From Saprospiraceae bacterium (GTDB lineage: Bacteria > Bacteroidota > Bacteroidia > Chitinophagales > Saprospiraceae), in NCBI GenBank assembly GCA_029263015.1, contig JAJCYI010000161.1, positions 1 to 54,549 on the forward strand: 54,549 bases of DNA, in the 5' to 3' direction. This document shows, one piece after another, positions 29,033 to 45,400 of the stretch. The notes below the pieces were generated by a model, which had not been told where the DNA came from, ran no database searches, and saw only the letters and a program-made list of their open reading frames with translations. The translations under genes were made by a program, and so were the position numbers. Position 1 is the stretch's first letter. The number at the start of each line of letters is the position of its first letter.

Positions 29033-30730
29033 TTAGTAAGTCCGCCCATTGTGGTTCTCACCATGACAAATTAAGGTACATTTCCCACTAAATGTCCCCA
29101 GATCTTCAAATTCGAGTACGCCATTACGAGGCGACACAATGTTTAAGTCGAAATTGATAAGGTGCGTATTATTTGTTGAATTCCCTTGTGTGTTACTTAC
29201 TCCATGAGGGTCGTGACAAGCATTGCAAGGAGCATCGACATTGTAAATATGCCGCTTATGTTCTGCAAAAGATTCGTCGTCTTTGATGGAGTCTTCATCA
29301 TGACATTCATAACACAGGCGATAGACGGAGGTTGATTGTTCGGTGTTATCGGCGGTCTCATATCTAAACCTGAGTACGGGCTCAAATATGGAGCCATGGG
29401 GTCCCTTTGGCGAATTAGCGCCATTACTTGCATGGCAATCCGTACAATAGATTATGCTGGATTCTGTAAGCGGGGCGATCAGGCTCGGGACATTTGGATT
29501 GTTGCCCACGCCTGCCACCGGGTGGTAAGAAGGGTTGTTGGTGTTAAATTCCAGTCTCACATTATTTTGGTCATGTTGCCTTAAGGTTCTGGCCGGTGGT
29601 TTGGAGGGGCTGTCGGCATGGCACCTGAAGCATAGTTCGTATTGATATTGAATGGGGTTGACAGTGTTGCCGCTCATATCAATTCCCTGAACCCCATTGA
29701 TAAAACCGTTGGCATTAGGGGCAGAAGCACTACTGCTGTTGGTTGCATGGGGGTTGTGGCAGTCTTGGCATTCCACATGTTGGGTGAGCGACAAGGCCCC
29801 TTCGCTTACGTCATGTATCAGGAAATAACCGGCAACGTTGTGAGTGGAGATTTTTGCAAGTTGGGATTGAATATCGGTGGATGCCACGTTTCCCGAATGA
29901 CAGGCAAGGCAATTATTTTCCTCAGTATTATAATTTAACAAAGGCTGGTTGGGTCCGGCGTTATGGGGGTTGTGGCAATTTTCGCACGCATTTTCTGCAA
30001 CGGTAGTATAAGGCGTATGGAACCAGGGATTGGTTCCAGATCCGTTCCAGGTTGCAGAAGAACTCTGGTGAGTGGAACTGGTCCAGTAATCTCTCTCATG
30101 GCAACTCAAACACAAGGCAGAATTTTGTCTGGTTTGAACCAGAAATTTACCGTTCACATTATCATGGGGATTATGGCAGGATGTGCATTGGGTTTTCCCA
30201 TTTTCAAGCCCGACGGGAGGTGTGATCGTTGCCGGATCTTTTAACTGACCATCAGCAGAGGCCAGGCTGGCAGAATAGATAAAGGAGATGGGGTGGTCGT
30301 CTGATAAATTTGTCGAAAGATTGGTATTTCCAGATGGCATCGTGGTCACCCCCCCCGTGAAAGCAATGTCTGTGGGCCTGCTGATCACATTGCCCAAGGC
30401 TATGGTACCGTCGTGGCAGGACAGGCATAAAACGGAGGATCCGTCCGGCTGATTGACCGAAGCATTAAGGGCAGTTGTATTATATAAGGTGTAAGTCATT
30501 CCTCCCTTGCCCTTATTCCATAAGGGGCTGTTGGCTCTGCTACTATGAGGGGTGTGGCAGAATATACAGATCTCGGACTCCGTGGTGGCCTTTATAGTAC
30601 CTGATCCGGTAGTTGACAAATTATGTAGACTGCTGACGATGGTTTGTGCAAAAAGTGGAGACATACCAAGACAAACCAGTATTGCTACAAAAGCCATTGA
30701 CCTACTGTAACTGTCATTATCTCTACTCAT
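29033..30730 (-). CDS. Twelve-haem doubled-CXXCH multihaem cytochrome c
   Basis: A 565-residue secreted cytochrome. A signal peptide spans about residues 10-29. Eleven CXXCH motifs follow (CIFCH, CLSCH, CTSCH, CLSCH, CENCH, CLACH, CQDCH, CFRCH, CTDCH, CYECH, CNACH), often as CxxCHxPH with a nearby distal His. The very last motif is CTLICH, a CX3CH variant 10 residues from the end, giving up to 12 haems. The first part (FCHTPHSS, LCLSCHDGTIALGN) resembles the 4-haem protein at 31976. The start overlaps the upstream NHL gene by 8 nt (ATGAGTAG), implying translational coupling. Probable role: long-range electron transfer at or beyond the outer membrane. Confidence 0.88.
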   Translation of the reverse strand: MSRDNDSYSRSMAFVAILVCLGMSPLFAQTIVSSLHNLSTTGSGTIKATTESEICIFCHTPHSSRANSPLWNKGKGGMTYTLYNTTALNASVNQPDGSSVLCLSCHDGTIALGNVISRPTDIAFTGGVTTMPSGNTNLSTNLSDDHPISFIYSASLASADGQLKDPATITPPVGLENGKTQCTSCHNPHDNVNGKFLVQTRQNSALCLSCHERDYWTSSTHQSSSATWNGSGTNPWFHTPYTTVAENACENCHNPHNAGPNQPLLNYNTEENNCLACHSGNVASTDIQSQLAKISTHNVAGYFLIHDVSEGALSLTQHVECQDCHNPHATNSSSASAPNANGFINGVQGIDMSGNTVNPIQYQYELCFRCHADSPSKPPARTLRQHDQNNVRLEFNTNNPSYHPVAGVGNNPNVPSLIAPLTESSIIYCTDCHASNGANSPKGPHGSIFEPVLRFRYETADNTEQSTSVYRLCYECHDEDSIKDDESFAEHKRHIYNVDAPCNACHDPHGVSNTQGNSTNNTHLINFDLNIVSPRNGVLEFEDLGTFSGKCTLICHGENHNGRTY

Positions 30731-31724
30731 TTACAATTAATTTGAATACCTGAATCCGTGAATTATAAGTGTCCGTTACATAAATATTGTCACTCCTGTC
30801 TACATATATATCTGTAGGCAACCAAAAGTGACCATCTTCATGTCCCTGACTCCCAAAATTGTATAGGAAGTCCCCATTTCGATCAAATATCTGAACAGTA
30901 TTAAACAAAGCATCTACAATATAGATATGTCCGTGGGAGTCTGTGGATATGCCTTTGGGTCTGGCAAAGTATCCACTGGCATCTCCAATTTTCCCAAATG
31001 CACTATTAAATGATCCGTCGTTATTTAAGATCTGGATACGAAAATTCATAGAGTCTACAACGTAAACCAGACCTGCTGCATCTATCCAGATAAAAGTAGG
31101 AAAATTAAATAACAAAGGACCTTTTCCTCTTTCTCCAATACGCTTAATCAATTCCCCATTTTCATTAAATATAGAAATGCGGTGGGCTGTTGTTTCCACA
31201 ACCCAGAATTGTTTGTCTTGTGTTGACCAGGCAATTCCCGTGGGCTGCTGCAATACTATTGAACCCTGCACAAGTTCAGAGACCTTTCCTTTTTCTGACA
31301 ATAGGAATACTTTACCTAAATAAGAATCGGTGAAAGCAATTCGTTCGCCGTCCAGACTGCACATCCCGACCAGAGAAGGAAAGACTTTGCGGGAACGGAC
31401 AGCAGGGAACAGTTTTCCTTTTTTCATTTTATAGCCCCAAATAGTCTTGCTTTGTTGATCGAGAATTCTCAACTCTCCGTTTTTGAGGACCCAGACAGAC
31501 ATGGGATGCCCCAGGGTGTGATAGCTTTTACCTCCAAGAATAGTATTCAATAAACGGGAAGAAAAGTTGCCCTTTACAGATTCTTTGGATGAAATACTGC
31601 TGACCCATTTGACTTGCTTCTTTTCTGGTTCTTGTGCATAGCTATGCTGGACAGTTGCACAAAGGAACATTAGACAACAAAAGAAGAATACCATGTCGGT
31701 GAAAGCCTTTTTTGATTTCATCAC
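30723..31724 (-). CDS. Secreted NHL-repeat beta-propeller protein
   Basis: A 333-residue NHL-repeat protein with a signal peptide (cleavage near AQE at about residue 31). At least five or six repeats of the form P.GI..D..G.IYVVD...NRIQ.F...G are visible (RPKGISTDSHGHIYIVD, LPTDIYVDRSDNIYVTD, NFRIQILNNDG). It forms a six-bladed propeller of the kind that binds protein partners. It is first in the minus-strand pair with the 12-haem cytochrome, with overlapping stop and start codons, so the two are made together. A second, lipid-anchored NHL protein partners the 9-haem cytochrome at 33150-35074, so I infer a structural role in assembling or docking cytochromes. Confidence 0.85.
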   Translation of the reverse strand: MMKSKKAFTDMVFFFCCLMFLCATVQHSYAQEPEKKQVKWVSSISSKESVKGNFSSRLLNTILGGKSYHTLGHPMSVWVLKNGELRILDQQSKTIWGYKMKKGKLFPAVRSRKVFPSLVGMCSLDGERIAFTDSYLGKVFLLSEKGKVSELVQGSIVLQQPTGIAWSTQDKQFWVVETTAHRISIFNENGELIKRIGERGKGPLLFNFPTFIWIDAAGLVYVVDSMNFRIQILNNDGSFNSAFGKIGDASGYFARPKGISTDSHGHIYIVDALFNTVQIFDRNGDFLYNFGSQGHEDGHFWLPTDIYVDRSDNIYVTDTYNSRIQVFKLIVNE

Positions 31725-31835
31725 AAAGTATGAAGTTGTGTTTATAAAGAATTCACTACCGGATACTTTTTAATGGGCTGTATAAAAGATCCCTGATAGT
31801 AAAACAAAATGAAGCATTTCCAAGCCTTTATAATA

Positions 31836-31873
31836 TGACAAAAATCATCTTGAAATAAGGGAGATTTTTGTCA
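31836..31873. promoter_or_regulatory. Dyad in divergent cytochrome promoter region
   Basis: The perfect 11-bp arms TGACAAAAATC/GATTTTTGTCA are separated by 16 nt, between the divergent NHL gene and the 4-haem cytochrome gene. A second perfect palindrome, ATGTCTAGACAT, lies at 31922-31933, about 43 bp before the 31976 start. Either could be an operator for both directions. Confidence 0.4.
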
Positions 31874-31975
31874 CCAAAACAAGGACGATGAATTGATGAA
31901 AGTCATTGTCCACTACAATGGATGTCTAGACATTTGCCCTAAAGAAAGTTTAACATAAAACAAAAAAGAATTACT

Positions 31976-32593
31976 ATGAAAAAGAAGATTGCATTCATCC
32001 TTATGTTAGTTGGTACGGGTGTCTTGGTTTACGGCCAGGGGATCACCGGCACAAAACATGATTTTTCCGCTGCTGGTTGGAACTCAACCGGGGAGATTTG
32101 CGTAGTTTGTCACACGCCTCACAATGCGGATATAACGGTTACCAATGCTCCATTGTGGAACCACGAAGTGACAACCGCAACTTTCCAGACCTACTCTTCA
32201 TTTACTTTTGATGGTTCTGGTACTATCGGTCAGCCTGACGGGGTTTCAAAGCTTTGCCTGAGCTGCCATGACGGCACGATTGCACTCGAATCTTTTGGGG
32301 GTGCAACTGGATCGACGTTCATGACAGGGGATGCCCTGTTGGGTACAGATTTGAGGAATGACCACCCTGTATCGTTCACATTTGACGCTGCACTGGCAAC
32401 AATAGATGGAGGCTTGTACGATCCTACCTCCGCTTTATCCGGCTTGGGTGGCACCATTGATGTTGACATGCTCCGGGGCGGTAAAGTTCAATGCGTATCT
32501 TGCCATGAACCCCATAACAAATATGGTCATGACAAGTTTTTAAGGAAGAGTAATGCCGGTAGCGCACTTTGTCTGACTTGCCACGACAAGTAA
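31976..32593 (+). CDS. Four-haem doubled-CXXCH cytochrome c
   Basis: A 205-residue periplasmic or secreted cytochrome with a Sec signal peptide (MKKKIAFILMLVGTGVLVYG). There are four CXXCH motifs: CVVCHTPH, CLSCHDGT, CVSCHEPH and CLTCH, the last two residues from the C-terminus. The layout matches the N-terminal third of the 12-haem protein at 29033 on the opposite strand, so the two probably share an ancestor. It is divergent from the NHL/12-haem pair. Probable role: a small electron shuttle feeding the larger cytochromes. Confidence 0.88.
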   Translation: MKKKIAFILMLVGTGVLVYGQGITGTKHDFSAAGWNSTGEICVVCHTPHNADITVTNAPLWNHEVTTATFQTYSSFTFDGSGTIGQPDGVSKLCLSCHDGTIALESFGGATGSTFMTGDALLGTDLRNDHPVSFTFDAALATIDGGLYDPTSALSGLGGTIDVDMLRGGKVQCVSCHEPHNKYGHDKFLRKSNAGSALCLTCHDK

Positions 32594-33149
32594 TTCTTTG
32601 CGAAAAGCATGTAAGTAATAAGTGATTTCTCTGTGAAAAGTAAAAACCTATTATTGTTATAAACATCGAGTGATAAATGGATCAAGGAGTGTTTAACCGA
32701 CACCAGACACCTTTTGTTCCACATTATGCAGGAGAAAACTAGTTGAAAAAGGGTATAAGTGAATCACACCTCTTCTTCAGGGTTTTCTTTGCCCAAAGTG
32801 TCATTTATCCTTGATTACCTACTTAGGATCGGAGCATTTTCTTTAGTTAAAAATACCAGGCTTTCTCTGGAATTAAATTTGGGGCGTGCAAATCCATTGA
32901 TTCGCCTTACTTATTTTGATGAAAATTTTATCTCAGGGAAGGTCTGGTTTTGACAGTAGGTTTAACAATTTTGTTTAAAAGGCTACTACGTAGATAAATT
33001 CTTACAGGAGGGAGCATCATAGCAAAAATCACCAAACGGTTTCTAATGTAATACTCCCTCCTAAAAAGATTTTTTGCTTCCAGAGCCAGCCATTGAAGAA
33101 TGATAACATGTTAGTCACCAACATTTATAATATTAAACATACTATTGGG
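32594..33149. other. 556-bp intergenic region with a 9-bp hairpin
   Basis: Between the 4-haem gene and the NHL lipoprotein gene. A 64-codon GTG-initiated frame (32759-32953) lacks recognisable features. AGGAGGGAG (33006-33014) pairs with CTCCCTCCT (33054-33062), followed by an A/T stretch. This may be a leader structure or terminator for the 4-haem transcript. Confidence 0.45.
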
Positions 33150-34220
33150 ATGAAAAAGATATTAAAGGTCTTATTTTTCCTGACCCTAGTATTATCTGCC
33201 TGTTCAGGCGCGCGCAAGATTCCCACCATTTCTGCTGAAAATATCAGAGTATATCCGGAGCCACCGGATAAACCACGAATCCAATATCTTACCAGTATCA
33301 GCAATTCAAAGGACATTGTTAAAAATAGGTCAGGGATGCATGAATTTGTTATGGGCAAAGAGAAAGACATCTCGGTATCAAAGCCCTATGGTATCGCCTT
33401 TGGGAATGACAAATTATATATATGTGACCTAGATATAAAAGGACTTCAGGTAATTGACCTAAAAGCTCAGTCATTCAAGTCGTTTGTACCTAAAGGTTTT
33501 GGGGCATTAAAAATGCCAGTGAATTGCTTTTTCGATAAAGAAGAGAACAAGTTATATGTCGCTGATAGCGAGCGAAAACAAATTGTGGTTTTTGATTCAA
33601 CTTTACAATATGTGGCAAGCTTAGGAGGAGACTCTTCTATTGTCAAACCGGTTGATGTTGCTGTCCATGGTGAAAAAATATTTGTGTCCGATTCGAGAGG
33701 GAAAGCCATTCATGTGTATGATAAATCCTCCCTTGAATTGATTGATAAATTTCCCAAATTAGAAAAAGGGCAGGAGGGCTTTCTCTACATGCCCATGAAT
33801 ATTAATGTTACATCGGACAAGCTTTATGTAACCGACTTCGGGGAATTTATTGTTAAGACTTATTCGCATGAGGGCGAATATTTAGGTTCTATCGGAAGTT
33901 TTGGCAGAAACATCGGGCAGTTTGTACGGCCCAAAGGGATCGCAACAGACCGGGAGGATAATGTTTATGTGGTGGATGCTGCATTTGAAAATGTACAGGT
34001 TTTTAATGATGTAGGGGAACTTCTCTTGTTTTTTGGAGGGCCTTACAAGACCGCCGGGGATATGTGGCTGCCTGCAAATGTGATCATTGATTACGATCAC
34101 AATGACTATTTCAAAGACTTTGTGTTTGAGGGTTTTGATCTGCAATACTTGATACTGGTCACCAACATGTTTGGACAGGATAAGGTCAATTTGTATGGAT
34201 TCGTTTCTGAAAAAAAATGA
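33150..34220 (+). CDS. NHL-repeat propeller lipoprotein of the cytochrome operon
   Basis: A 356-residue lipoprotein. The ATG at 33150 gives signal peptide MKKILKVLFFLTLVLSAC with a lipobox Cys; the frame from 33093 is longer but lacks this property. Five or six NHL-like blades are visible (KLYVADSERKQIVVFDS, IFVSDSRGKAIHVYDKSS, LYVTDFGEFIVKTYS, VYVVDAAFENVQVFND). The final blade region mentions no catalytic motif. It is first gene of a tight operon: its TGA overlaps the ATG of the 9-haem cytochrome by 4 nt. By analogy with the NHL/cytochrome pair at 30723 it probably docks or organises cytochromes at a membrane face. Confidence 0.85.
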   Translation: MKKILKVLFFLTLVLSACSGARKIPTISAENIRVYPEPPDKPRIQYLTSISNSKDIVKNRSGMHEFVMGKEKDISVSKPYGIAFGNDKLYICDLDIKGLQVIDLKAQSFKSFVPKGFGALKMPVNCFFDKEENKLYVADSERKQIVVFDSTLQYVASLGGDSSIVKPVDVAVHGEKIFVSDSRGKAIHVYDKSSLELIDKFPKLEKGQEGFLYMPMNINVTSDKLYVTDFGEFIVKTYSHEGEYLGSIGSFGRNIGQFVRPKGIATDREDNVYVVDAAFENVQVFNDVGELLLFFGGPYKTAGDMWLPANVIIDYDHNDYFKDFVFEGFDLQYLILVTNMFGQDKVNLYGFVSEKK

Positions 34221-35074
34221 ACGCAAGGAATGCGATATTTTTAATAATCATTTTGATTATCACCGGTCTTCAATGTTGCAGCCCGACCAAAAGACACTTG
34301 CTTTTATCAACCTTCTTAGATGGAGTTCCTCCTTTGGATACATCTTCCCGATTGGTTTCACAAAATGTATTTAATGCAGCGATGGACACTTCAGCAAACA
34401 CGACAGGATCCGCAAATGAGGTGGTAGGCATGAATGTACACCCACCCTTTCGAGACAGGCAGTGCCGGAAGTGCCATCAAGAATTCTCTAACAATCTTGT
34501 TAAACCATTGCCTTCCCTTTGTTTTCAATGCCATGAACCATTTTGGAACACTTATGAAAAACTTCATGGCCCGGTGATTTCAGGCCATTGCATAAAATGC
34601 CACAATCCCCATTGGACAGATAAAAAAAAGTTATTGTTACGGGCAGGCCAGGATATATGTTTTGAATGCCATAAACAAGACGCCATTCTGGCCAACTCAA
34701 AACATGAAACAATCGGAAACCGGAACTGTACGGATTGCCATTCCCCTCATGGTGGAAAAAACAATTTTATGCTCAAAGATGGAAGCTGTTATAACTGCCA
34801 CGACTTGCACATGGATGAACCCGACCGCTTTAAACATGGGCCGGTACTCAGTTTCAATTGCTACGAATGCCATGGAACCCATTCTACAAAAACAGAACAT
34901 AAACTGCTTCGGTCTGGCCAAGACATTTGCCTGAAATGCCACCAGTCAAAAGACATACTAGCCAACAAAGCTCATGAAACAATAGGGGAAACAATATGCA
35001 CCGAATGCCATAACCCCCACCAAAGTGATCAAAAATACATGCTCATAATAAATAAAGTAGATGAGGATAAGTAA
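34217..35074 (+). CDS. Nine-haem cytochrome c lipoprotein
   Basis: A 285-residue multihaem cytochrome. The signal sequence ends TGLQCCS, suggesting lipid attachment at C20. Nine CXXCH motifs are present: CRKCH, CFQCH, CIKCHNPH, CFECH, CTDCHSPH, CYNCH, CYECHGTH, CLKCH and CTECHNPH. The doubled CXXCH pattern appears as two tandem blocks (LLRAGQDICFECHKQ and LLRSGQDICLKCHQS), evidence of internal duplication. The start overlaps the NHL gene by 4 nt and the end overlaps the barrel gene by 14 nt. It is the likely periplasmic-side cytochrome of a porin-cytochrome conduit, equivalent in place to OmaB or MtrA. Confidence 0.88.
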   Translation: MNARNAIFLIIILIITGLQCCSPTKRHLLLSTFLDGVPPLDTSSRLVSQNVFNAAMDTSANTTGSANEVVGMNVHPPFRDRQCRKCHQEFSNNLVKPLPSLCFQCHEPFWNTYEKLHGPVISGHCIKCHNPHWTDKKKLLLRAGQDICFECHKQDAILANSKHETIGNRNCTDCHSPHGGKNNFMLKDGSCYNCHDLHMDEPDRFKHGPVLSFNCYECHGTHSTKTEHKLLRSGQDICLKCHQSKDILANKAHETIGETICTECHNPHQSDQKYMLIINKVDEDK

Positions 35075-37007
35075 ATCCATATCACTTGTTATTATACTGC
35101 TGTTGTCGCTTAAAACCATGGCACAGCAGGAGCGCTTTTTCGGCATTCGGTCTTATAGCGGGGAAATAGGTATTTCGACATTATTTAAAAAACAGCAGAG
35201 TATATCTCCGGCCATCACTGATTATCAGGAATCAACCACTGTTTCGGGAGGGTTATTACTCAATGCCCAATCCTATGTATGGACACCGAAATTCTTTCTC
35301 TTTGATGTAAGTGCCGGTTATAATCCGGTGAGTGGGCAAAATATGTTCCTCGTAACCCCGGACAGAAATGAAGTCAGGACTTTAAAGAGACTTGTGCTAA
35401 GGGCGACATTCCTGGAAGATAAGCCCATATCCCTCCATCTGTTCAAAAACTATAATGAAAATTTCACCAAAAGAGACCTCTTGACTGATGTCAAGAATAT
35501 GGGGGATGCCATGGGTGCTTCGCTAAAAATCAGCAATAGGTTGTCGCCCATAGTGGTAGATTACCGGGAGAACAACTGGAAGCAGGAAGAAATTGAGAAA
35601 GACAGGGTTTCCAATAATACCCACCGTGCACTTTGGGTAAAGACCGAAAGATCATTTTCCCAAACAAATAGGCTGACTCTGGACTATCACCACAATGAAT
35701 ACAAATATCATGGGTTTGAACTGACTAAGACCAATAATACGAATGACATGGTTGACATCAATCATTCGTTCTTTTTCGACACCCTGAAGACTCAAGGGCT
35801 TAGGTCAAAAGTTAATTTTATTGATCAAAGGGGGAATCAGTCTTTCCAAAGAGCGCAAGTTTTTGAAAGCGTGAATTTAAACCTGCCATCAAACTTTAAC
35901 CTAACTGGCAATTATCAATATTCCAGAAATGTACGACCTGTTTCCACTCTGAATATGCACACGGCAAAGGCGCAAGTGAATCACCAGCTGTATGCTAGCT
36001 TGAAGTCGAGTGTTTATGTTGAATACACCAAAATCAAACAAACAGCTTTTGATGAAAGGGATTTCAGGTTTAGTGGATCCCTAAGATATACCAAACGGAT
36101 ATTGGGGGGGAATACCCTGAACATCAATTATAGTTATTTCAGGCTCGGACAGAAGGTTGATCGAAAACAGGTAATGCCCCATGTTTTCGATGAGGAAGTT
36201 ACCATTTCCGATAACGAGATTGTCCTGATCGATAATCCATTTGTTGATCTGAACACAGTTGTTGTGACCGATCTTACCGGGGTAACTCGATACCTCCCAA
36301 ACATAGATTATCTCCTATTCGAAAGCGGGGAATTTGTTGAAATCCAGCGTATTCCCGGAGGACTGATTGCGGAAGGCAGCATCGTTCTGGTAGATTATGT
36401 TCATCAGCAAAATGCAGATCATCGTTTTGCGCTGATCCGCCATTCCGTAGAAACAGAGGTAATTTTATTTAACCGTTTGATAAGGTTATATGCACGGGCA
36501 AGCAAACAAAAATATAACCATATTGAGTCCTCTGGATTGGTGGGGTTGAGACCTTTCCGTGATTTAAATTATGGGGCAATTTTCAATTATGGCTTTTTAA
36601 CTGGGGAAATAGAATACCGGCTATTCGATAGCAGTATTGGGCCGTACAGGATGTTGGGCTATCAACTACAGGCTTCCGAAACTTTGGCGAAAAGGCTGCT
36701 CTTTTCCTTGATCGCCAGCCGGAAAAAATTTCAAAGGCTCGATCAGGAAAGCACGGAGTTTTATATGGACGTGTATGGGGGGTTAACCTATAAAATCAAT
36801 CCAAGGTCGAAGGTAGATGTCAACATTGGATACCGAAACCAACAAGGAAGGCTACTTGATCTAGACCTGTTCACGGCCCGGCTTCAGTATTCGGTTTCCT
36901 TTCGGTTGATATCAATGAATGTTGGTGGTTCAATATACAGGAGGGATTACCTGGAAGAAGCCATAGACTACAATAATTTTTATGTCCAGTTAATGAGAAG
37001 GTTCTAA
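35061..37007 (+). CDS. Outer-membrane beta-barrel protein of the cytochrome conduit
   Basis: A 648-residue protein with signal peptide MRISKSISLVIILLLSLKTMAQ. The rest is dominated by alternating hydrophobic and polar strands rich in Tyr, Phe, Arg and Asn (LTLDYHHNEYKYHG, FNLTGNYQYSRN, LNINYSYFRLG, VDVNIGYRNQQG). It ends in a strand with terminal aromatic and Arg-Phe (FYVQLMRRF), the usual signal for outer-membrane barrel insertion. I expect about 20 or more strands. Its position between a 9-haem and a 15-haem cytochrome, with a 14-nt overlap upstream, makes a porin-cytochrome sheath role likely, as for MtrB or OmbB. I see no clear sequence similarity to those, so it may be a separate family. 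Confidence 0.78.
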   Translation: MRISKSISLVIILLLSLKTMAQQERFFGIRSYSGEIGISTLFKKQQSISPAITDYQESTTVSGGLLLNAQSYVWTPKFFLFDVSAGYNPVSGQNMFLVTPDRNEVRTLKRLVLRATFLEDKPISLHLFKNYNENFTKRDLLTDVKNMGDAMGASLKISNRLSPIVVDYRENNWKQEEIEKDRVSNNTHRALWVKTERSFSQTNRLTLDYHHNEYKYHGFELTKTNNTNDMVDINHSFFFDTLKTQGLRSKVNFIDQRGNQSFQRAQVFESVNLNLPSNFNLTGNYQYSRNVRPVSTLNMHTAKAQVNHQLYASLKSSVYVEYTKIKQTAFDERDFRFSGSLRYTKRILGGNTLNINYSYFRLGQKVDRKQVMPHVFDEEVTISDNEIVLIDNPFVDLNTVVVTDLTGVTRYLPNIDYLLFESGEFVEIQRIPGGLIAEGSIVLVDYVHQQNADHRFALIRHSVETEVILFNRLIRLYARASKQKYNHIESSGLVGLRPFRDLNYGAIFNYGFLTGEIEYRLFDSSIGPYRMLGYQLQASETLAKRLLFSLIASRKKFQRLDQESTEFYMDVYGGLTYKINPRSKVDVNIGYRNQQGRLLDLDLFTARLQYSVSFRLISMNVGGSIYRRDYLEEAIDYNNFYVQLMRRF

Positions 37008-37017
37008 ATCAAAAGCA

Positions 37018-38388
37018 ATGGAAATTTTGGTTTTTTTATATACGGTGTTATCCATTTTTGCTGAACCTGCTGAAAAGGTTGCGGAACCTTCTATCCCTGC
37101 TATAAATCTAACTTATCAAGTGCAAACGGATTCGACAAATATGAAATGCTTGGAATGTCATGGCGACCTGATGCAGCATAAAGTGAAACATTTGTCAGCG
37201 GTGCTGGATTGCAAAAACTGCCATGAGCCTACGACTGCAAGCCATCCCGGGAATTCAGCTGGTTTTGCACTTAAAGACAAAGTCCCCCAATTGTGTTTCA
37301 CTTGCCACGCCCATATACCCAAGGGCAAGCATGTGCATCCACCTGTTCAGGAAGGCCGCTGCCTTGACTGTCATAACCCGCACAGCTCTCCCAATAAAAG
37401 GCTATGGCACACGCCAACTTCGGCGGAACTGTGCCTGACCTGCCATAAAGAAAAACTGAATCTGGAAAGTAAGAATATGCTTCACAAACCGGTGGAGCAA
37501 GGTCAGTGCCATGATTGCCACAATCCGCATTCTACCGATACCGAGAAGTTCTTGAAAAAAGACGTTCCCCGGCTTTGCATGAAATGCCATAAGGACAAGC
37601 GGAAGATGTTGAAAATGGATCATGTCCATCCGCCCTTTGCTACAGATTGTCGTATTTGCCACGATCCACATGGCTCAAAAGAAGCGAACCTCCGCAGAAT
37701 GGAGATCATTCCTTTGTGTACTATGTGCCATCCTTTGATAGGCATGAAGTTGAGAAAATCTTCTGTGGTACACCAAGCGGTAAATATCGAAAAGAATTGC
37801 GTCAACTGTCACTCGCCCCACGCATCTCCGCATGACAAACAATTGCTGGGTGAAGTAAAAGAGGTCTGCCTCAAATGCCACGACAAAACCATTGCCGGTG
37901 CAGCGAGGGAAATCCCAAGTATCGGTGATATGATTAAGGAGGGTAACCGGGTGCATCCCGCCATAGATTCCTTCGGCTGTGCGGCGTGCCACGACCCTCA
38001 TGGCGCAGATAAAGACCGCTTACTGCTTCAGGAATTTTCCATTCATGAATACGTGCCGGGCAAAAAGGAAAGCTTTGAGCTTTGTTTCAAATGCCATGAT
38101 GAGAAGCTCTTTGACGATCAGTTCACAACAACCGCCACCAATTTCAGGATAGGAGATAAGAATCTGCACTTTGTCCATGTCAACAGGGAGGAAAAAGGAA
38201 GGAACTGCAAGCTTTGTCACAACGTACACGGATCGCCCAATAATCACCTGATCCATGAAAAAAGCCAATTTGGAAGATGGGAAATGCCCTTAAACTACAA
38301 TCATCGGGAGGATGGTGGTTCCTGCCTGCCTGGTTGTCATGAACAGCGGAGTTATTCCCGGTCTCCACCCATAGATGCAGGGCAGTGA
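37018..38388 (+). CDS. Fifteen-haem doubled-CXXCH cytochrome c
   Basis: A 456-residue cytochrome with an N-terminal hydrophobic signal (residues 2-15). Fourteen CXXCH motifs are seen: CLECH, CKNCH, CFTCH, CLDCHNPH, CLTCH, CHDCHNPH, CMKCH, CRICHDPH, CTMCH, CVNCHSPH, CLKCH, CAACHDPH, CFKCH and CKLCHNVHGSPNNH. A terminal CLPGCH, a CX3CH variant 19 residues from the end, follows. That is about one haem per 30 residues, dense enough for a wire. It begins 10 bp after the barrel gene. By position it is the probable outer-face terminal cytochrome of the conduit. It is the second protein here with a CX3CH as its last haem site. Confidence 0.9.
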   Translation: MEILVFLYTVLSIFAEPAEKVAEPSIPAINLTYQVQTDSTNMKCLECHGDLMQHKVKHLSAVLDCKNCHEPTTASHPGNSAGFALKDKVPQLCFTCHAHIPKGKHVHPPVQEGRCLDCHNPHSSPNKRLWHTPTSAELCLTCHKEKLNLESKNMLHKPVEQGQCHDCHNPHSTDTEKFLKKDVPRLCMKCHKDKRKMLKMDHVHPPFATDCRICHDPHGSKEANLRRMEIIPLCTMCHPLIGMKLRKSSVVHQAVNIEKNCVNCHSPHASPHDKQLLGEVKEVCLKCHDKTIAGAAREIPSIGDMIKEGNRVHPAIDSFGCAACHDPHGADKDRLLLQEFSIHEYVPGKKESFELCFKCHDEKLFDDQFTTTATNFRIGDKNLHFVHVNREEKGRNCKLCHNVHGSPNNHLIHEKSQFGRWEMPLNYNHREDGGSCLPGCHEQRSYSRSPPIDAGQ

Positions 38389-38475
38389 ATTCTGACCGGT
38401 GTTGAAAGTTCAAATATTAGTGACTTGAACCATAAATCATTAATAATTTTTTTAACAATTTAAAACAACAATAAA

Positions 38476-38910
38476 ATGAAAAGGAAATTCAAAATCATCG
38501 TAATCCCCGCGCTCATGTTGATGGGATTATTCGCTTTCACCGATGGGGACTTTGTCACGACGAACCCCGCCGAGATTGCAGGAGAGCCATGGTTGGCACC
38601 ATCCGAAGCTAACGATATTCAAAATCCGTTAGAGATTGACGAGTACACGCTGGAGGACGGTATGGATATTTACTCCGTCAATTGCCTGTCCTGTCATGGG
38701 GAAAAAGGGGATGGAGATACGCCCATTGCTGCTGCGTTGGATCCCAAGCCCAAAAACTTTAAGGATCCCTCATTTATAGAGCAGTCAGATGGAGCTATTT
38801 ACTGGAAGATCACTACCGGAAGAGGGTTAATGGTATCCTTCAAGGACGTTTTAAGTGAAGAAGAAATCTGGTCAGCTGTTGTTTATATAAAATCATTGTC
38901 AAAAGGCTGA
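38476..38910 (+). CDS. Monohaem class I cytochrome c
   Basis: A 144-residue secreted cytochrome with a signal peptide (residues 1-24). One haem motif, CLSCHGEKGDGDTP, and a distal Met in GLMVSFKDVLSEEEIWSAVVYIKSL fit the cytochrome c class I fold seen in soluble or oxidase-linked carriers. It is 88 bp after the 15-haem gene and followed by a terminator at 38939, so it probably ends that operon. Likely role: a mobile periplasmic donor or acceptor linking the respiratory chain to the multihaem proteins. Confidence 0.9.
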   Translation: MKRKFKIIVIPALMLMGLFAFTDGDFVTTNPAEIAGEPWLAPSEANDIQNPLEIDEYTLEDGMDIYSVNCLSCHGEKGDGDTPIAAALDPKPKNFKDPSFIEQSDGAIYWKITTGRGLMVSFKDVLSEEEIWSAVVYIKSLSKG

Positions 38911-38938
38911 TAATTCAAAATCAGTCAACCTGCTAATT

Positions 38939-38979
38939 ACAGGCCCGTTTGGATAACATCTGGGCGGGTCTGTATTTTT
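38939..38979 (+). terminator. Terminator of the cytochrome operon
   Basis: A 9-bp stem ACAGGCCCG/CGGGTCTGT (one G-U pair) with a 17-nt loop, then ATTTTTT. It lies 29 bp after the monohaem cytochrome stop. Confidence 0.75.
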
Positions 38980-39083
38980 TAAATCAGGCTCGGGCGCAAA
39001 AGCCCATTTACAAGCCTCAAGGAGATCATGGTTACTGGATTTTTGATATGAACCAAATGTTTAACCACCTTCTATTTAATAGC

Positions 39084-39101
39084 CATGACATGTATGTCAT
39101 G
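39084..39101. promoter_or_regulatory. 18-bp dyad upstream of the cytochrome c synthase gene
   Basis: CATGACAT-GT-ATGTCATG, a perfect 8-bp-arm palindrome whose end is 17 bp before the ATG at 39119. The core TGACA-N4-TGTCA resembles Crp/Fnr-type half-site spacing. It could be an operator or a start-codon-proximal RNA hairpin. Confidence 0.45.
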
Positions 39102-39118
39102 AATAACCAAAATATATT

Positions 39119-42100
39119 ATGAGGTATCTAAGATTTTTGTTCTCAGGAGCCTTCATGGGCATTTTGCTCATTTTATTTGCTGCAGCGATTGGCTACGCTA
39201 CTTTTGTTGAAAATGATTATGATGCCGTAACGGCTAAAATGGTAGTGTACAATGCCAAGTGGTTTGAAGCATTGATGGGTTTGATGGTGGTTAATTTCGC
39301 TGGGATGATTTTTACATATAAGCTTTATGTATTAAAAAAATTAAACATTCTTATCATCCACCTTGCTTTTGTTTTTATTATCATAGGGGCTGCCATAACC
39401 CGTTATATTGGGCTTGAAGGCCAAATGCACATTCGGAACGGCCAGACTATTGACCAGTTTCTCTCGGCTGATGAATATTTGAAGGTTCGCTTGGAAAAGG
39501 ACGGTGCAATAAAAGAAATAGAAGGGAAAGTCATGTTCTCCTCTAAAAAGGAAAATCTTTATTCCGCTTCCGTAGATTTTGAAGGAAAGCCGTATCAGAT
39601 TTCGGTTCAAAAATATCTCCCTAATGCAGTACAGACTGTTGTACCTGTTAACATGGGTGTTCCTTATATTAAAATGGTAGTGGGTAGTCAAGCTGGCAGG
39701 CATGAGACCTACATCAAACACGGTGAACAAAGGGATTTGTACGGCACCATTTTCAGTTTTGGGGATACGGTCATTGCTGGTCAGGTCAATATCATATTGC
39801 AGGACAGCCAACTGTTTGTCAATGCCCCAGATACACTGACCACAAGCCCAATGGACGGAAGCCAAAAGCAGATTTTTGAGGCAAATAAAACAGTGCCTGT
39901 GAAACTTATGAATGTTCATTCGATGGGAAACAGCCCCTTTGTTATCACAGAATTTATCGAAAATGGTTTTATGAACTACACCCAGGCCACTGATGAAAAG
40001 CAGCAGGGAATACCCATCATCAAGATGGAAATCAATAACATGATCATGCGTATCCCGAAAGGGGTTGAAAAAACCCGCGATATTGAAGGCACGAAAGCCA
40101 CGGTGTACGTTGGCAGCAAATTACTTGATCTCCCTTTTGCCCTTCATTTGAACCAATTTGAAATGGAACGCTACCCCGGCTCTAACAGCCCCTCTTCCTA
40201 TGCCAGTCACGTTACTGTAGTGGATGATGAACTGCGGGAAACATTTGATTTCAAAATATTCATGAACAACATCCTCAATTACCGAGGGTACAGGTTCTTC
40301 CAATCATCGTATGACCAGGATGAGCAGGGTACTATACTTTCGGTCAACCATGACTTCTGGGGCACCTTGGTCACTTATTTTGGGTATGCACTTTTGTTCG
40401 GTAGTCTTATCGCTTCGTTTTTCACCCGGAACAATCGATTTGCATCACTTACCCAACAACTGAAGACGATCCACTTACAAAGGAAAAAAACAATGGCATC
40501 CATTGCCGTGCTGGGGCTGATTATAGCTTTTACAAATCAGGCCATTGGGAATAATATATTAGATGGATATATCGATAAGGTACATGCAGAATCATTTGGG
40601 ACATTGTTGACCCAAGACATTGAAGGTAGAATTGAACCAGTAAATACCGCAGCGGCAAAGGTGCTTATGAAAATTTACAAAAAAACAACATTCAATGGGT
40701 TGTCTGCAGATCAGATATTCTTGGGATTTGTATCAGACCCTGATAAATGGCGCTCCGAGCCAATCATAAAGGTAAGTGATCCCGCCTTGCGGAGTATTTT
40801 GGGCATGTTGGAAGACCATGCCCGGTTTTCAGATTTTATTGATAAAAACGGGAAGTATAAAATAATGGAATATGTAGATCTTGCCTATCAGAAAAAGCCG
40901 GCACTGCGCTCGACATTTGACAAAGAAATTATTAACGTGGACGAGCGGGCGAATGTAATGTACAAAGCGCTCAATGGCGATTTTATTAATATTTTCCCAC
41001 TTCAGAATGATCCAAATAATAAATGGATCACACCGCCTGAATTTCACAGGCTGTCCGGCCACGGTACTCCCGATGGTGATATGTTCGAGCATTATATGCT
41101 TGCATTAAATGATGCAAAAGTGACTGGGGATTATTCCGATGCTGCCTCACTTTTAGAAATAATAAGGAATTATCAGCAAGAAAACGGGAATGAGATCATC
41201 CCCTCGGAGACAAAAATTAAATTGGAACTATTTTATAACAAGGCGAATATATTCCAACGCCTTTTTCCATTTTACCTGACGGTCGGCCTTATTCTGGTAG
41301 TATTGTTTTTTCTCCAAATATTTAATGTTTCGCTGCAGTTTCGTTTGGTGGGGAAAGTTCTCGTTGCAATATTGTTGGCGGCATTTCTCTTCCACACCTA
41401 TGGACTGGGCCTACGTTGGTATCTGTCCGGCCACGCCCCCTGGAGCAATGGGTATGAATCAATGATCTACATTTCCTGGGCTACCATGCTCGCTGGGTTC
41501 TTGTTTATGAAACGGTCTCGGGTTACCCTTGCGATTACCTCTGTGCTAGCGGGGATTACTTTATTGACCGCTCATATGAGTTGGATGAACCCAGAGATCA
41601 CAAACCTTGTCCCGGTGCTGAAATCACACTGGCTGACCATCCATGTGGCCACTATTACTGGCAGTTACGGTTTTCTCGGACTGGGTTGCTTGATGGGGTT
41701 TCTGAACATGCTGCTGATGATTTTTCGGAACAAGCAAAACGAGCTTCAGGTCAACCTGATGTTGCATGAGCTAACGCTTATTGTTGAAATATCTCTGATT
41801 GTCGGATTGGTGTTGTTGATTATCGGCAATTTCCTTGGAGGGATATGGGCAAATGAATCATGGGGCAGATATTGGGGTTGGGATCCTAAAGAATCCTGGA
41901 CACTGGTTTCAGTAATTGTTTACTCTTTTGTACTGCATTTGAAATTGATACCCTCGCTTAGAAGTAACTTTTCCTTTAACCTGCTTGCAGTACTTAGCTT
42001 TGGGTGTGTCCTGATGACCTATTTCGGTGTGAACTATTACCTGACAGGTTTACACTCATATGCAAATGGAGACCCTGTTCCGATACCAACATTTGTGTAT

Positions 42101-42208
42101 TATACATTGGCCGTCATTGCATCGGTAGCTGTATTGGCGGGGTTAAAAGAGCATTCTCACCGGTCATTAAATGAGCAGACCTTACAGAAAAAGCCACTGA
42201 TAATATGA
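39119..42208 (+). CDS. ccsBA: Fused System II cytochrome c synthase (ResB-CcsA, CcsBA type)
   Basis: A 1029-residue membrane protein that attaches haem to CXXCH motifs outside the cytoplasmic membrane. The N-terminal part (about 1-450) is ResB/Ccs1-like: helices at 7-28, 48-66 and 75-93, a long periplasmic domain (FFQSSYDQDEQGT) and a fourth helix. The C-terminal part (about 715-1015) is CcsA-like with the haem-handling WWD motif WGRYWGWDPKESW and conserved His residues in flanking helices (ILLTAHMSW-like, LKSHWLTIHV). Such fusions are typical of Bacteroidota and epsilonproteobacteria. It stands directly after five cytochrome genes, behind a terminator and a dyad, so it may be separately regulated. 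It may be specialised for the dense multihaem substrates, including the CX3CH sites. Confidence 0.93.
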   Translation: MRYLRFLFSGAFMGILLILFAAAIGYATFVENDYDAVTAKMVVYNAKWFEALMGLMVVNFAGMIFTYKLYVLKKLNILIIHLAFVFIIIGAAITRYIGLEGQMHIRNGQTIDQFLSADEYLKVRLEKDGAIKEIEGKVMFSSKKENLYSASVDFEGKPYQISVQKYLPNAVQTVVPVNMGVPYIKMVVGSQAGRHETYIKHGEQRDLYGTIFSFGDTVIAGQVNIILQDSQLFVNAPDTLTTSPMDGSQKQIFEANKTVPVKLMNVHSMGNSPFVITEFIENGFMNYTQATDEKQQGIPIIKMEINNMIMRIPKGVEKTRDIEGTKATVYVGSKLLDLPFALHLNQFEMERYPGSNSPSSYASHVTVVDDELRETFDFKIFMNNILNYRGYRFFQSSYDQDEQGTILSVNHDFWGTLVTYFGYALLFGSLIASFFTRNNRFASLTQQLKTIHLQRKKTMASIAVLGLIIAFTNQAIGNNILDGYIDKVHAESFGTLLTQDIEGRIEPVNTAAAKVLMKIYKKTTFNGLSADQIFLGFVSDPDKWRSEPIIKVSDPALRSILGMLEDHARFSDFIDKNGKYKIMEYVDLAYQKKPALRSTFDKEIINVDERANVMYKALNGDFINIFPLQNDPNNKWITPPEFHRLSGHGTPDGDMFEHYMLALNDAKVTGDYSDAASLLEIIRNYQQENGNEIIPSETKIKLELFYNKANIFQRLFPFYLTVGLILVVLFFLQIFNVSLQFRLVGKVLVAILLAAFLFHTYGLGLRWYLSGHAPWSNGYESMIYISWATMLAGFLFMKRSRVTLAITSVLAGITLLTAHMSWMNPEITNLVPVLKSHWLTIHVATITGSYGFLGLGCLMGFLNMLLMIFRNKQNELQVNLMLHELTLIVEISLIVGLVLLIIGNFLGGIWANESWGRYWGWDPKESWTLVSVIVYSFVLHLKLIPSLRSNFSFNLLAVLSFGCVLMTYFGVNYYLTGLHSYANGDPVPIPTFVYYTLAVIASVAVLAGLKEHSHRSLNEQTLQKKPLII

Positions 42209-42441: not shown

Positions 42442-45400
42442 CTATTTCATCAACTGTACATCCCCCTTCACCATTTCTGTGCTGCCGTCCACAAATTCCA
42501 GCACGGCAAAGTAGGCAAAGACAGCAGGGTTCATTGGCTTGCCACGGTAAGAACCGTCCCAGCCAAAAGAGAGATCATTGGGCGGCAGGTTGAAGTAGGA
42601 AAAAACAGGATCGCCCCAACGGTCGAAAATGTGGAACTCCAAGATTCGGACGAGGTGCGGCCCACCAAAAATCGTGAAATGGTCGTTGATGCCGTCGAAG
42701 TTTGGACTGAAAGCATTGGGGATGTAGTATCGGAAGTCTTTATTTACCACGACCTGAATTGCATCGCTGGCCATGCAGCCCAATGTGTCAATGACAGTGA
42801 CGGTATAAGTGCTGGTAGCAATAGGGCCCACGGTCACATTGGGGCAACCCGGACAGTCAACTCCTTCCCAGTAGATCGAATCGAGCAGGGAGAACGGCAC
42901 GTTTGTGAGAAGTTGGAACGTAAGGGAATCGCCATACTGTATGCTCGCATCCTGCCCTAGCGAAGCTGTCAGTTCAGTATATGGATTGATGAAAATATAC
43001 GATGACGCGGTACAACCATTAGCATCTTCCACTTCTATCAGATTATTTCCAGAAGTTAATCCTTCAAATACGGGATTACCCTGCCAGTCATTTCCGTTCA
43101 GTGAATATCGGTATGGCTCGCTCCCGCCTTCCACCTGGCCGATGGCGATGGCTCCCAGCCCGTCGGTGAAGCAGTCCGGGTGAGCCACCGACAGGTTGAA
43201 CTGAATGCTGTCTGGGCTTTCCAGCAAGACAGAATCAATCGCCAGACAGCCCTCTGCGCCCGTTACAGTAACGGAATGCCAGCCTTCACCCAGGTCATCG
43301 GCTTGTGCGTTTTGACTGCCGTTCGACCAACTATACGAATATTGTGGAAGCCCTCCGCTCAGTACTGTCACAGAAGCTGCCCCATCGGCAGAACCATGGC
43401 ACGATATGCCATAACCATTAAAATCGGAGCTTAATTGGAGGTCAATCTGTAAAGGGTTGGGTTGAAATATAACAGCACTCAAAGTGGTCATCAGACCATT
43501 GGGATCTAATATCTCGAAGGTATATGTTCCCGGCAGCAAACCACTGACTTCCTGTGGTAATCCACTTTGATTAATGATCCCCGAACCTGTATTTCCATTT
43601 TGATCCGTCCAGGTGTAGTCATAAGGTGGCATGCCATCGAGAAAAGTCAACCAAAGATTGCCTGCTGTTTCCTGACATCCGATCGTATCTCCCTGAATCA
43701 GCGCATTCAACTGGCATTGGGCGGCAGGGAGCAAATTGGTTTGCTCGAAAACGATGCTATCGCAGCCGTATTGATTATTAAGCATTGTAAAGACAAGTCC
43801 TGTGTCTGCGGGCAAGCAGCTTCCAAAAAAGAGCCAGGTGGTGTCAATTGGCAATTGTGCAGTATTTGTTATGACGAGACTGTCGCAGCCAAAAACATTG
43901 GTCATAATTATTTCAGTGGTGCCCACCTGATTGGGATTACAACTAAAAGCCTGCAAGACTGTCGTATCGGAAGGCAACAAAGTGGTAGTTGTAATTACAA
44001 GGCTGTCACAGCCAGACATGTTTTGCTGGGCAACCTCCTCTACTCCAGCTTCGGCGGGATCACAGGTTTCGGCAATTAGCAGGGTTGTATCTGGCGGACT
44101 AAATATTGTTGTGGTAATGATCAGACTATCGCAGCCATATTGGTTGAGAAGTATCTCCTCGCTTTGCCCTGCCTGGTCAATATCACATGAAATGGCCTGC
44201 AGGTTAGTAGTATCTGATGGCAATAAGGATATCGTCGTGACCAGCAGGCTATCGCAGCCATATTGATTGACGAGCAATTCTTCCGAGATGCCAATGTTTG
44301 CCGGATCGCAGGTTTGGGCAAAGACTAGTACGGTATCGGATGGCAAGAGGGTAGTTGTTATAGTCACGACACTGTCGCAACCATCCGAACTCATTAGTAT
44401 TTCCACAAACACGCCCGCTTCGACAGGAGAACAAGTGGTATTTCCAACCTGGGTGGAATCGGCCTGAGCGAAGCTAGTGGTGATAACCAGAAGGCTATCG
44501 CAACCGAACTGATTCGTCAGCAGCACCTCTTCTGTGCCAGCCTGGTTTAGATCGCAGCTAGTTTGAAAAAGGGCCGTTGTGTCTGAAGATAGCAGGCCAA
44601 TGGTGGTAATGAGAATGCTATCACAACCAAAACTATTTGACAAAACTTCCTCAAAAACCCCCACTTCTACTGGGTTACAGCTTTCTGAAAAGATTAGTGT
44701 GGTATCAGGCGGAATAAAGGTCGTATTGGTGATAATTAAGCTGTCGCAGCCCTCCTGATTTGACAACAATTCTTCGCTTTGTCCCCCTTGGTTAATATCG
44801 CAGGTAGAATCCTCTAGGTAGGTGGTATCGGATAGCAAAAGGTCAACCATAGTTATAACGAGGCTATCACAACCATCACTTCCAGTGTACAAATCTTCGA
44901 ACACACCTACCGCTAACAGATCACAGGAGTTATCGAAAAGGTAGGTCGTGTCAACCAAAATAAATTCGGTAGTGGTGATCACCAGACTATCGCAGCCAAA
45001 ACTATTTGTAAAAACCTCTTCTGTGACGCCGGTATTAGCTGGGTCACAACTTTGTTCAAAAACATTAACGGTATCGACAGGAAGTAGGGCGGTAGTGGTT
45101 GTCACCAAGCTATCGCAACCGGATTGATTTGTCAGCAATTGCACCACGGTTCCTGTATCCTGAGGAAAACAACTGTACTCTTGGAAGAACAGGCTATCCG
45201 AAGGCAGGAGCGTCACAGTCTCGATCTCCACGCTGTCACAGCCAAACTGATTGGTAAAAGTCAGGGAAAAGATACCGGTATCCTGTGGATTACAAGATTG
45301 GTTAAATAGTAATACAGAATCCGACTCACTGAAACTGACTGTCAAGATTTCTATACTGTCACAGCCATATTGGTTAACGAATTCTTGGACAAATATTCCT

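Follow-up and report, generated by a model that had tools for sequence, protein, structure and literature searches.

How wires built of cytochromes are secreted, anchored and supplied with electrons has been called unresolved (PMC12307469), and a cluster of nine genes from a Saprospiraceae bacterium raises the question of whether one locus might provide for all three. The cluster occupies positions 29,033 to 42,208 of the 54,549-nucleotide contig JAJCYI010000161.1 (assembly GCA_029263015.1), the whole of which is referred to as the window. A sequence-only reading had described it as a porin-cytochrome locus with cytochromes of 12, 4, 9, 15 and 1 haems, a pair of NHL propellers, a 648-residue barrel protein and a ResB-CcsA synthase, and open reading frame (ORF), motif and Pfam checks bear out this inventory, with all nine genes in place and haem counts that agree (the tally is of CxxCH motifs, with one CxxxCH each added for the 12-haem and 15-haem proteins). 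We think it probable that the locus encodes a machine for extracellular electron transfer resembling the Uet (undecaheme electron transfer) pathway, in which an outer-membrane porin-cytochrome conduit would also export and anchor a filament of the OmcE type. The parts on which this rests are as follows.

29033..30730, minus strand: 12-haem cytochrome (H12), UetJ-like, with signal peptide, OmcE module and 8-haem domain (565 amino acids; 11 CxxCH and 1 CxxxCH)
30095..30643, minus strand: OmcE-like nanowire module of H12, residues ~30-212 (phmmer and Foldseek to 7TFS)
29036..30094, minus strand: C-terminal 8-haem domain of H12, residues ~213-565 (8 haem motifs, His invariant)
30723..31724, minus strand: NHL beta-propeller a (NHLa), UetHI-like (Pfam NHL, E=2e-24; overlaps H12 by 8 bases)
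31976..32593, plus strand: 4-haem cytochrome (H4), UetA-like and homologous to the nanowire subunit OmcE (205 amino acids, 4 CxxCH)
33150..34220, plus strand: NHL beta-propeller b (NHLb), predicted lipoprotein (Pfam NHL, E=1.2e-10; LSAC by eye; start set by eye to the ATG at 33150)
34217..35074, plus strand: 9-haem lipoprotein, MtrA-like, with 5 haems in most relatives (285 amino acids, 9 CxxCH)
35061..37007, plus strand: outer-membrane beta-barrel type protein in UetC-like position (648 amino acids; DSSP of the AlphaFold model, Foldseek)
36183..36404, plus strand: soluble domain inserted in the barrel, residues ~375-448 (DSSP of the model)

Two cytochromes related to the OmcE nanowire subunit

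Judged from its sequence, H4 is homologous to OmcE, the nanowire subunit of Geobacter. Residues 14-205 match the OmcE nanowire structure 7TFS (phmmer, E=1.9e-25) and residues 22-205 match 9YUQ (E=1.6e-26), an entry of 16 chains named 'putative multiheme cytochrome c'; the third PDB match, 6qvm, is weak (E=0.0028). OmcE is a filament subunit in which one haem is ligated by a histidine from the neighbouring subunit (PMC12954529, PMC12307469), and 4 haem motifs with 4 further His are identical in all 13 aligned rows of OmcE, 9YUQ, H4 and H12. Unlinked paralogues of the OmcE-like protein, with five motifs, occur at L027:10272-10925, L029:6860-7513 and L031:11824-12477; their neighbourhood is common to all three and by eye appears polysaccharide-related.

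Sequence and model agree that the N-terminal third of H12 is likewise an OmcE homologue, joined to an 8-haem domain that has no solved fold match. Residues 12-212 match 7TFS (phmmer, E=4.9e-32), and because 7TFS and 9YUQ are the only PDB chains to reach E ≤0.01, the match is more than a general likeness of CxxCH proteins. An AlphaFold model built from 49 aligned rows (predicted local distance difference test score 86.7, predicted template modelling score 0.81) has 7TFS as its sole significant Foldseek match in the PDB (E=2.5e-9, probability 1.00), with a template modelling (TM) score of 0.73 normalised by target over 202 alignment columns, for a target of 202 residues; no other PDB fold matched the 8-haem domain above probability 0.05 in this search. 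All 49 rows, which were selected as relatives of H12, have the wire-type module followed by another haem domain. Throughout these rows 12 motif His and 12 further His are identical, such that all 12 haems could be bis-His ligated, and the C-terminal CxxxCH that forms the twelfth motif is invariant; the protein that has been counted as undecahaem is probably a 12-haem protein.

Conservation of the cassette across phyla

Relatives were sought with H12, which is better conserved than the barrel. Used as a single-sequence query, the barrel found one clear relative (G298), nothing that could be confirmed in genome contigs or plasmids, and a match in 1 of the 149 genomes of the window's taxonomic order, the host's own. 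Two further low-scoring barrel matches (L003/L006 and L004/L007) were dropped, there being no ORF of ≥100 amino acids with CxxCH nearby. A scan of genome contigs with the H12 alignment confirmed at least 569 relatives, and the best 80 of these were kept: record titles assign 74 to 15 NCBI phyla and leave 6 unplaced, and most are metagenome bins, which can contain stray contigs.

Forty of the 80 loci are well-flanked, with at least 8 kb on either side of the 12-haem gene, and were scored with six-frame profiles. Since H12 was the query it is present in all 40, and it is accompanied by NHLa in 40, H4 in 39, the barrel in 38, NHLb in 37 and the lipoprotein in 36. The 15-haem family was found in 23 and a maturation gene in 8 (the profile for the latter mixed the window CcsBA with five CcmF-like genes, and its counts mean that a CcsBA- or CcmF-type gene was detected), and a single-sequence profile of the mono-haem cytochrome found it in none of the 40. 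Over all 80 loci the corresponding figures are NHLa 76, H4 60, barrel 66, NHLb 58, lipoprotein 54, 15-haem family 36, maturation gene 9 and mono-haem cytochrome 2. The barrel gene lies on the strand of H12 in all 66 loci that hold both; H12, the barrel, both NHL proteins and H4 occur together in 51 of 80, and the same five plus the lipoprotein in 46 of 80, drawn from 12 named phyla plus unplaced records. By these profile matches the cassette has a core of H4, NHL, a 5- or 9-haem lipoprotein, barrel, NHL and H12 that is kept across phyla.

Gene order also recurs, as the sequence-only reading required, both in other phyla and in another family of the same phylum (f53), where it runs NHLa, 12-haem, 4-haem, NHLb, 5-haem lipoprotein, barrel and a multihaem protein. 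The set is whole in L005, L026, L030, L032 and L033, and in genome G568 is split over L034 and L035. The f53 barrel is just 22-28% identical to that of the window, and gene order thus outlasts sequence. Among Cyclobacteriaceae-titled records, L039 has the full set with CcsBA, and L042 has a partial set at a contig end. The carriers Carboxylicivirga marina N1Y132 (L080) and Desulforhopalus sp. IMCC35007 (L079) would, if cultured, allow the cassette to be tested.

Some relatives have additional genes at the locus. The Carboxylicivirga marina locus has genes for a sensor kinase and for a sigma-54 response regulator between the 12-haem and 4-haem genes (L080:3860-6756), and two similarly sized ORFs stand in their place in L040 and L058; together these ORFs suggest dedicated regulation of the cassette. 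Rieske-like and cytochrome b-like ORFs occur near the cassette with 9-, 11- or 17-haem cytochromes at L035:10237-15504 and L058:1035-6102 and, judged by eye, are a possible quinol entry module.

The barrel protein

An alignment of 7 sequences gave an AlphaFold model of the 648-residue protein that is almost entirely beta, with ~28 strands counted outside residues 375-448, and the 50 Foldseek matches listed are all outer-membrane barrels by title, which agrees with the porin-cytochrome type assigned earlier and gives no sign of a common unrelated family. Many of the residues that are invariant among the 7 aligned members fall in the soluble insert, and 44 of 61 barrel relatives end in F. TM scores to solved barrels are low, which makes the topology provisional; the Mtr complex barrel 6r2q_B stands at rank 21 among the listed matches with a TM score of 0.37.

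The protein has no meaningful family match in Pfam (best E 0.075) or NCBIfam (best E 0.046). Membership in MtrB/PioB (PF11854) was considered and rejected, there being no match in the window barrel nor in 50 aligned members; in 8 cassette genomes PF11854 gives a weak match in 2 and exceeds the cut-off in 0. Pfam matches among the 50 members are confined to three unrelated ones, each in a single member. An NCBIfam phage tail tube model is matched by 12 of the 50 (best E 4.9e-8), which we put down to chance or to the inserted soluble domain. The 9- and 15-haem cytochromes resemble MtrA in sequence. For the 9-haem protein, which has a lipobox-like Cys by eye, the match to 6r2q_A has a phmmer E of 1.3e-13; 6R2Q is the Mtr complex, and its chain A has 333 residues, the length of MtrA (PMC4245776). 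In the PDB sequence file 6r2q_A carries the molecule name cystathionine beta-synthase, an apparent mislabel.

Relationship to the Uet pathway

The gene set recalls the Uet pathway, whose source study is reportedly that of Eddie et al. in 2022. Uet is described from Tenderiales and some Gallionella (PMC10734462), and an undecaheme cytochrome of Tenderia also appears in PMC5371394. Its parts are UetJ (11 or 12 motifs, doubled-CXXCH), the extracellular tetraheme UetA, the beta-barrel UetC, the NHL proteins UetHI, the triheme cytochromes UetDEG and the peptidyl-prolyl isomerase UetB (PMC10734462). By description rather than by sequence, H12 corresponds to UetJ in its 11 CxxCH, 1 CxxxCH and PF09699 matches and the two NHL proteins correspond to UetHI; H4, as a tetraheme protein, may correspond to UetA, and the barrel may correspond to UetC. 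The window differs in having the 9-haem lipoprotein, the 15-haem protein and CcsBA. It contains no UetDEG-type triheme protein (no ORF of ≥100 amino acids with three CxxCH), and the Pfam scan of the nine locus proteins found no UetB-type isomerase among them. Since neither a triheme protein nor the isomerase turned up there, we take the locus as a Uet-like variant and not as a member of Uet, on the evidence of gene content.

Of 369 genomes from the class of a Sedimenticola record, 13 contain H12 at E ≤1e-80, and the loci of 9 of the 13 were examined. One of these (L186) duplicates the DNA of L054, and another (L190) contains masked bases. The barrel was called in 8 of the 9 (not L190) and the 4-haem gene in 7 (not L185 or L190); the 12-haem gene has an NHL gene called next to it in 7 (not L187 or L190). 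In both L191 and L192, two triheme cytochromes lie between the 4-haem gene and the barrel, all four of the Pfam family Cytochrome_C7, giving a composition (4-haem, two 3-haem, barrel, NHL, 12-haem) close to that of Uet and showing that the window's barrel family also occurs in triheme-bearing loci. The periplasmic partners vary, with the 15-haem protein and lipoprotein in Bacteroidota-Calditrichota and triheme proteins in some Proteobacteria.

The earlier suggestion of an undescribed conduit family proves too strong, since the gene set matches most of published Uet (PMC10734462). The set is partly described already under that name; the idea of an OmcE-type anchor is new and testable. No report was found of the likeness to OmcE, of the fusion, of a core shared across phyla or of a version in Bacteroidota in the parts of the literature searched, a search to which the primary Tenderiales, OmcE-structure, 'ubiquitous nanowires' and OmcS-assembly papers were external.

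A proposed conduit joined to a wire

If the cassette works as we propose, the MtrA-like 9-haem lipoprotein would sit in the barrel and link the periplasm to the cell surface, with the 15-haem and mono-haem proteins acting as lineage-specific carriers on the periplasmic side. Outside, H12 would take electrons through its 8-haem domain, which in 39 of 49 aligned rows resembles an MtrC/MtrF domain in sequence, and its OmcE module would be the first subunit or anchor of an H4 filament. Each NHL propeller gene neighbours that of an OmcE-type cytochrome, and the two propellers may aid its secretion or assembly; the adjacent ResB-CcsA may help to attach the 41 haems of the set. H12 fits the part of anchor or first subunit because it combines a wire module with a haem domain and keeps company with NHL in 40 of 40 and the barrel in 38 of 40 loci. 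The specific idea that H12 is the missing anchor of OmcE-type nanowires, with its OmcE module capping or seeding the H4 filament and its 8-haem domain docking on the barrel, is put forward tentatively and may well be wrong. Were it right, a single cassette would make, export, anchor and wire a nanowire in a dozen phyla, and so-called undecahaem proteins would be 12-haem anchors with the twelfth haem on the invariant C-terminal CxxxCH. A conserved part-wire protein beside a barrel in many phyla is a direct candidate for the joint of wire and conduit, and its distribution suggests that OmcE-type wires, for which the named structure is a Geobacter one, belong to a far more widespread system.

Several points weigh against a conduit with an anchored filament. 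H4 may be a monomer. The linkage counts, having been taken from H12 matches, are conditional on H12. In the barrel model, residues 1-121 are mostly of low confidence, TM to any solved barrel is low, and Foldseek singles out no one family. The 15-haem protein may itself lie on the outer face, as its match to an MtrC/MtrF domain allows, which would leave H12 as not the sole candidate for that position. Finally, the Geobacter-type OmcE loci described below show no H12, which makes it dispensable for at least some OmcE filaments.

Of the alternatives, a conduit without a wire survives best, although we consider it unlikely: H12 would be a terminal cytochrome at the surface, as MtrC is, and H4 a secreted monomeric shuttle, with no filament. 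An OmcE fold alone is no proof of polymerisation, and sequence cannot separate wire from non-wire relatives of OmcS (PMC12977616). Moreover, H12 residues 243-380 give a partial match to Pfam PF22113 (MtrC/MtrF domains II/IV; 52.7 bits against a cut-off of 30), which is present in 39 of the 49 rows at E 0.001; the H12 model has no MtrC-like fold match by Foldseek against the PDB. Against a monomeric shuttle stand the OmcE set of His, one of which crosses the subunit interface, kept in both H4 and H12, and the joining of wire module to haem domain in every one of the 49 rows, though these were picked as H12 relatives.

The sequence-only reading had cast the products of the genes at 34217, 35061 and 37018 as the three conduit parts, and in this form the 9-haem lipoprotein, the barrel and an outer-face 15-haem protein would be the whole conduit, with the 12- and 4-haem proteins as side carriers. 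The third of these genes is the following.

37018..38388, plus strand: 15-haem cytochrome, MtrA/DmsE-like, accessory (456 amino acids, 14 CxxCH and 1 CxxxCH)

Neighbours among the three either overlap or are separated by 10 bases, and the 15-haem protein exceeds the PF22113 cut-off (50 bits against 30). Its best PDB match, however, is 6r2q_A (phmmer, E=6e-15), the MtrA-length chain A of the Mtr complex, several versions in f53 appear by eye to bear an N-terminal membrane anchor, and the family is present in 23 of 40 well-flanked relatives as against 39 for H4 and 40 for H12. In NCBIfam, TIGR03507 (OmcA/MtrC) gives it 28.3 bits, far under the cut-off of 209.3, and the DmsE-family decahaem model gives 142.2 bits (77.9 for the 9-haem protein), both under the cut-off of 192.2. 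From its distribution the 15-haem protein is accessory; the proposed trio is not supported as the three parts, and the arrangement built on it is improbable. Least credible of all is a purely periplasmic role, in respiration or cytochrome maturation, which could appeal to the adjacent cytochrome c synthase and mono-haem cytochrome and to weak NrfB-like matches in H12 under the Pfam and NCBIfam cut-offs, since the barrel gene is present in 38 of 40 well-flanked relatives, the 12 haems of H12 appear bis-His, leaving no catalytic site, and the Pfam scan of the nine locus proteins found no terminal reductase.

Comparison with other known systems

A further comparison is with the locus of OmcE itself. 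The OmcE chain was searched in 297 genomes of the phylum of L079, where 32 matched, and six regions (L150-L155) were examined, four of which (L150-L153) are called Geobacter type on the basis of 43-61% OmcE identity. In L150, L152 and L153, OmcE is accompanied by a ResB-type gene (by Pfam for L150 only), CcsA, a 10-11-haem and an 8-haem cytochrome, one NHL gene or two, and a protein of 769-807 residues whose last residue is F; L151 is similar, with no called NHL or ResB gene and a large protein of 748 residues, and L154 and L155 differ in content. The four Geobacter-type loci share with the window cytochromes that match its 15-haem profile, CcsA, a 748-807-residue protein that is barrel-like by eye and, in 3 of 4, a called NHL gene; they differ in having no H12 fusion and another large protein instead of the window barrel. 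Homology of the window barrel with the large protein of L150-L154 was rejected by profile save in the last 79 columns.

With MtrCAB the window shares a barrel, MtrA-like cytochromes and MtrC/MtrF domain II/IV matches over the Pfam cut-off in H12 and the 15-haem protein; it differs in that its barrel falls outside PF11854 and TIGR03507 is far under cut-off. Two further systems can be set beside it by description. In syntrophic sulfate reducers, OetABI conduit genes are clustered with the filament-type cytochromes OmcS/OmcX, and the authors suggest that each filament could work with a conduit (PMC10553843); the wire there is of the OmcS rather than the OmcE type. A freshwater Verrucomicrobia cluster combines multihaem cytochromes with a barrel predicted to have at least 20 strands, and differs in that its periplasmic cytochromes have 8 haems (PMC5615132). 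Verrucomicrobiota are among the carriers of the present cassette.

Layout of the locus, haem attachment and the host genome

The remaining features of the locus are these.

31725..31975, strand not assigned: divergent intergenic region between two transcription units (251 bases, from coordinates)
38476..38910, plus strand: mono-haem class I cytochrome (1 haem motif; Pfam Cytochrome_CBB3, E=2.4e-12)
39119..42208, plus strand: fused ResB-CcsA cytochrome c synthase (CcsBA), accessory (1029 amino acids; Pfam ResB and Cytochrom_C_asm)

The genes are closely packed, as had been noted before: the 12-haem gene and NHLa overlap by 8 bases, NHLb and the 9-haem gene by 4, and the 9-haem gene and barrel by 14, and the barrel and 15-haem genes are 10 apart. 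The pair formed by the 12-haem gene and NHLa runs opposite to the remaining cassette genes, and the locus is two divergent transcription units and not a single operon. The mono-haem cytochrome is a possible periplasmic shuttle.

Haem-maturation genes of differing kinds, to judge from their domains, recur beside OmcE-type loci: CcsBA in the window and in L039, where a CcsBA-like gene of 1022 amino acids adjoins the cassette, and ResB with CcsA in L150. A CcmF-like gene lies 3' of the cassette in five f53 loci (L026, L030, L032, L033 and L035, by Pfam) and none is present in L005. The place taken in f53 by CcmF-like genes (System I) is taken in the window by ResB-CcsA (System II), an unrelated haem-attachment system. 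The host genome encodes two other long CcsA-domain proteins (frames of 961 and 1042 amino acids); CcsBA is one of three, and its position does not imply exclusive service to the locus.

A Pfam scan of the nine locus proteins found the paired-CXXCH, NHL, ResB and Cytochrom_C_asm families. All 15 matches to paired-CXXCH (PF09699) at E ≤0.001 in the 6.95 Mb host genome lie inside the cassette, making it an unusually clean single-locus case; because of this, and because other phyla show the same gene content and order, the locus is not a chance assembly. Recent transfer, judged by base composition, was considered and is unsupported: the G+C content at third codon positions of the nine genes is 0.386-0.510, and that of 22 other ORFs in the window is 0.436 (standard deviation 0.064). 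In the H12 tree the Bacteroidota are not grouped together (5 rows and 3 changes, 2 of them forced by starred branches), which is no more than suggestive. The host genome contains three COX1-family genes over cut-off, from which the cell can probably respire oxygen, and the NrfD family is also present; with both families in the genome, electron flow outward (to minerals, humics or partners) and inward are both possible.

Elsewhere in the window, a di-haem cytochrome c peroxidase/MauG-like protein (Pfam) is encoded at 17860-19194 on the minus strand and is the sole further listed ORF with two CxxCH motifs. A 1516-residue protein with cysteine repeats is encoded at 42442-46992, also on the minus strand; its C-terminus, by eye, resembles what we take to be a gliding-motility/type IX secretion system type B sorting domain, which is typical of gliding Bacteroidota.

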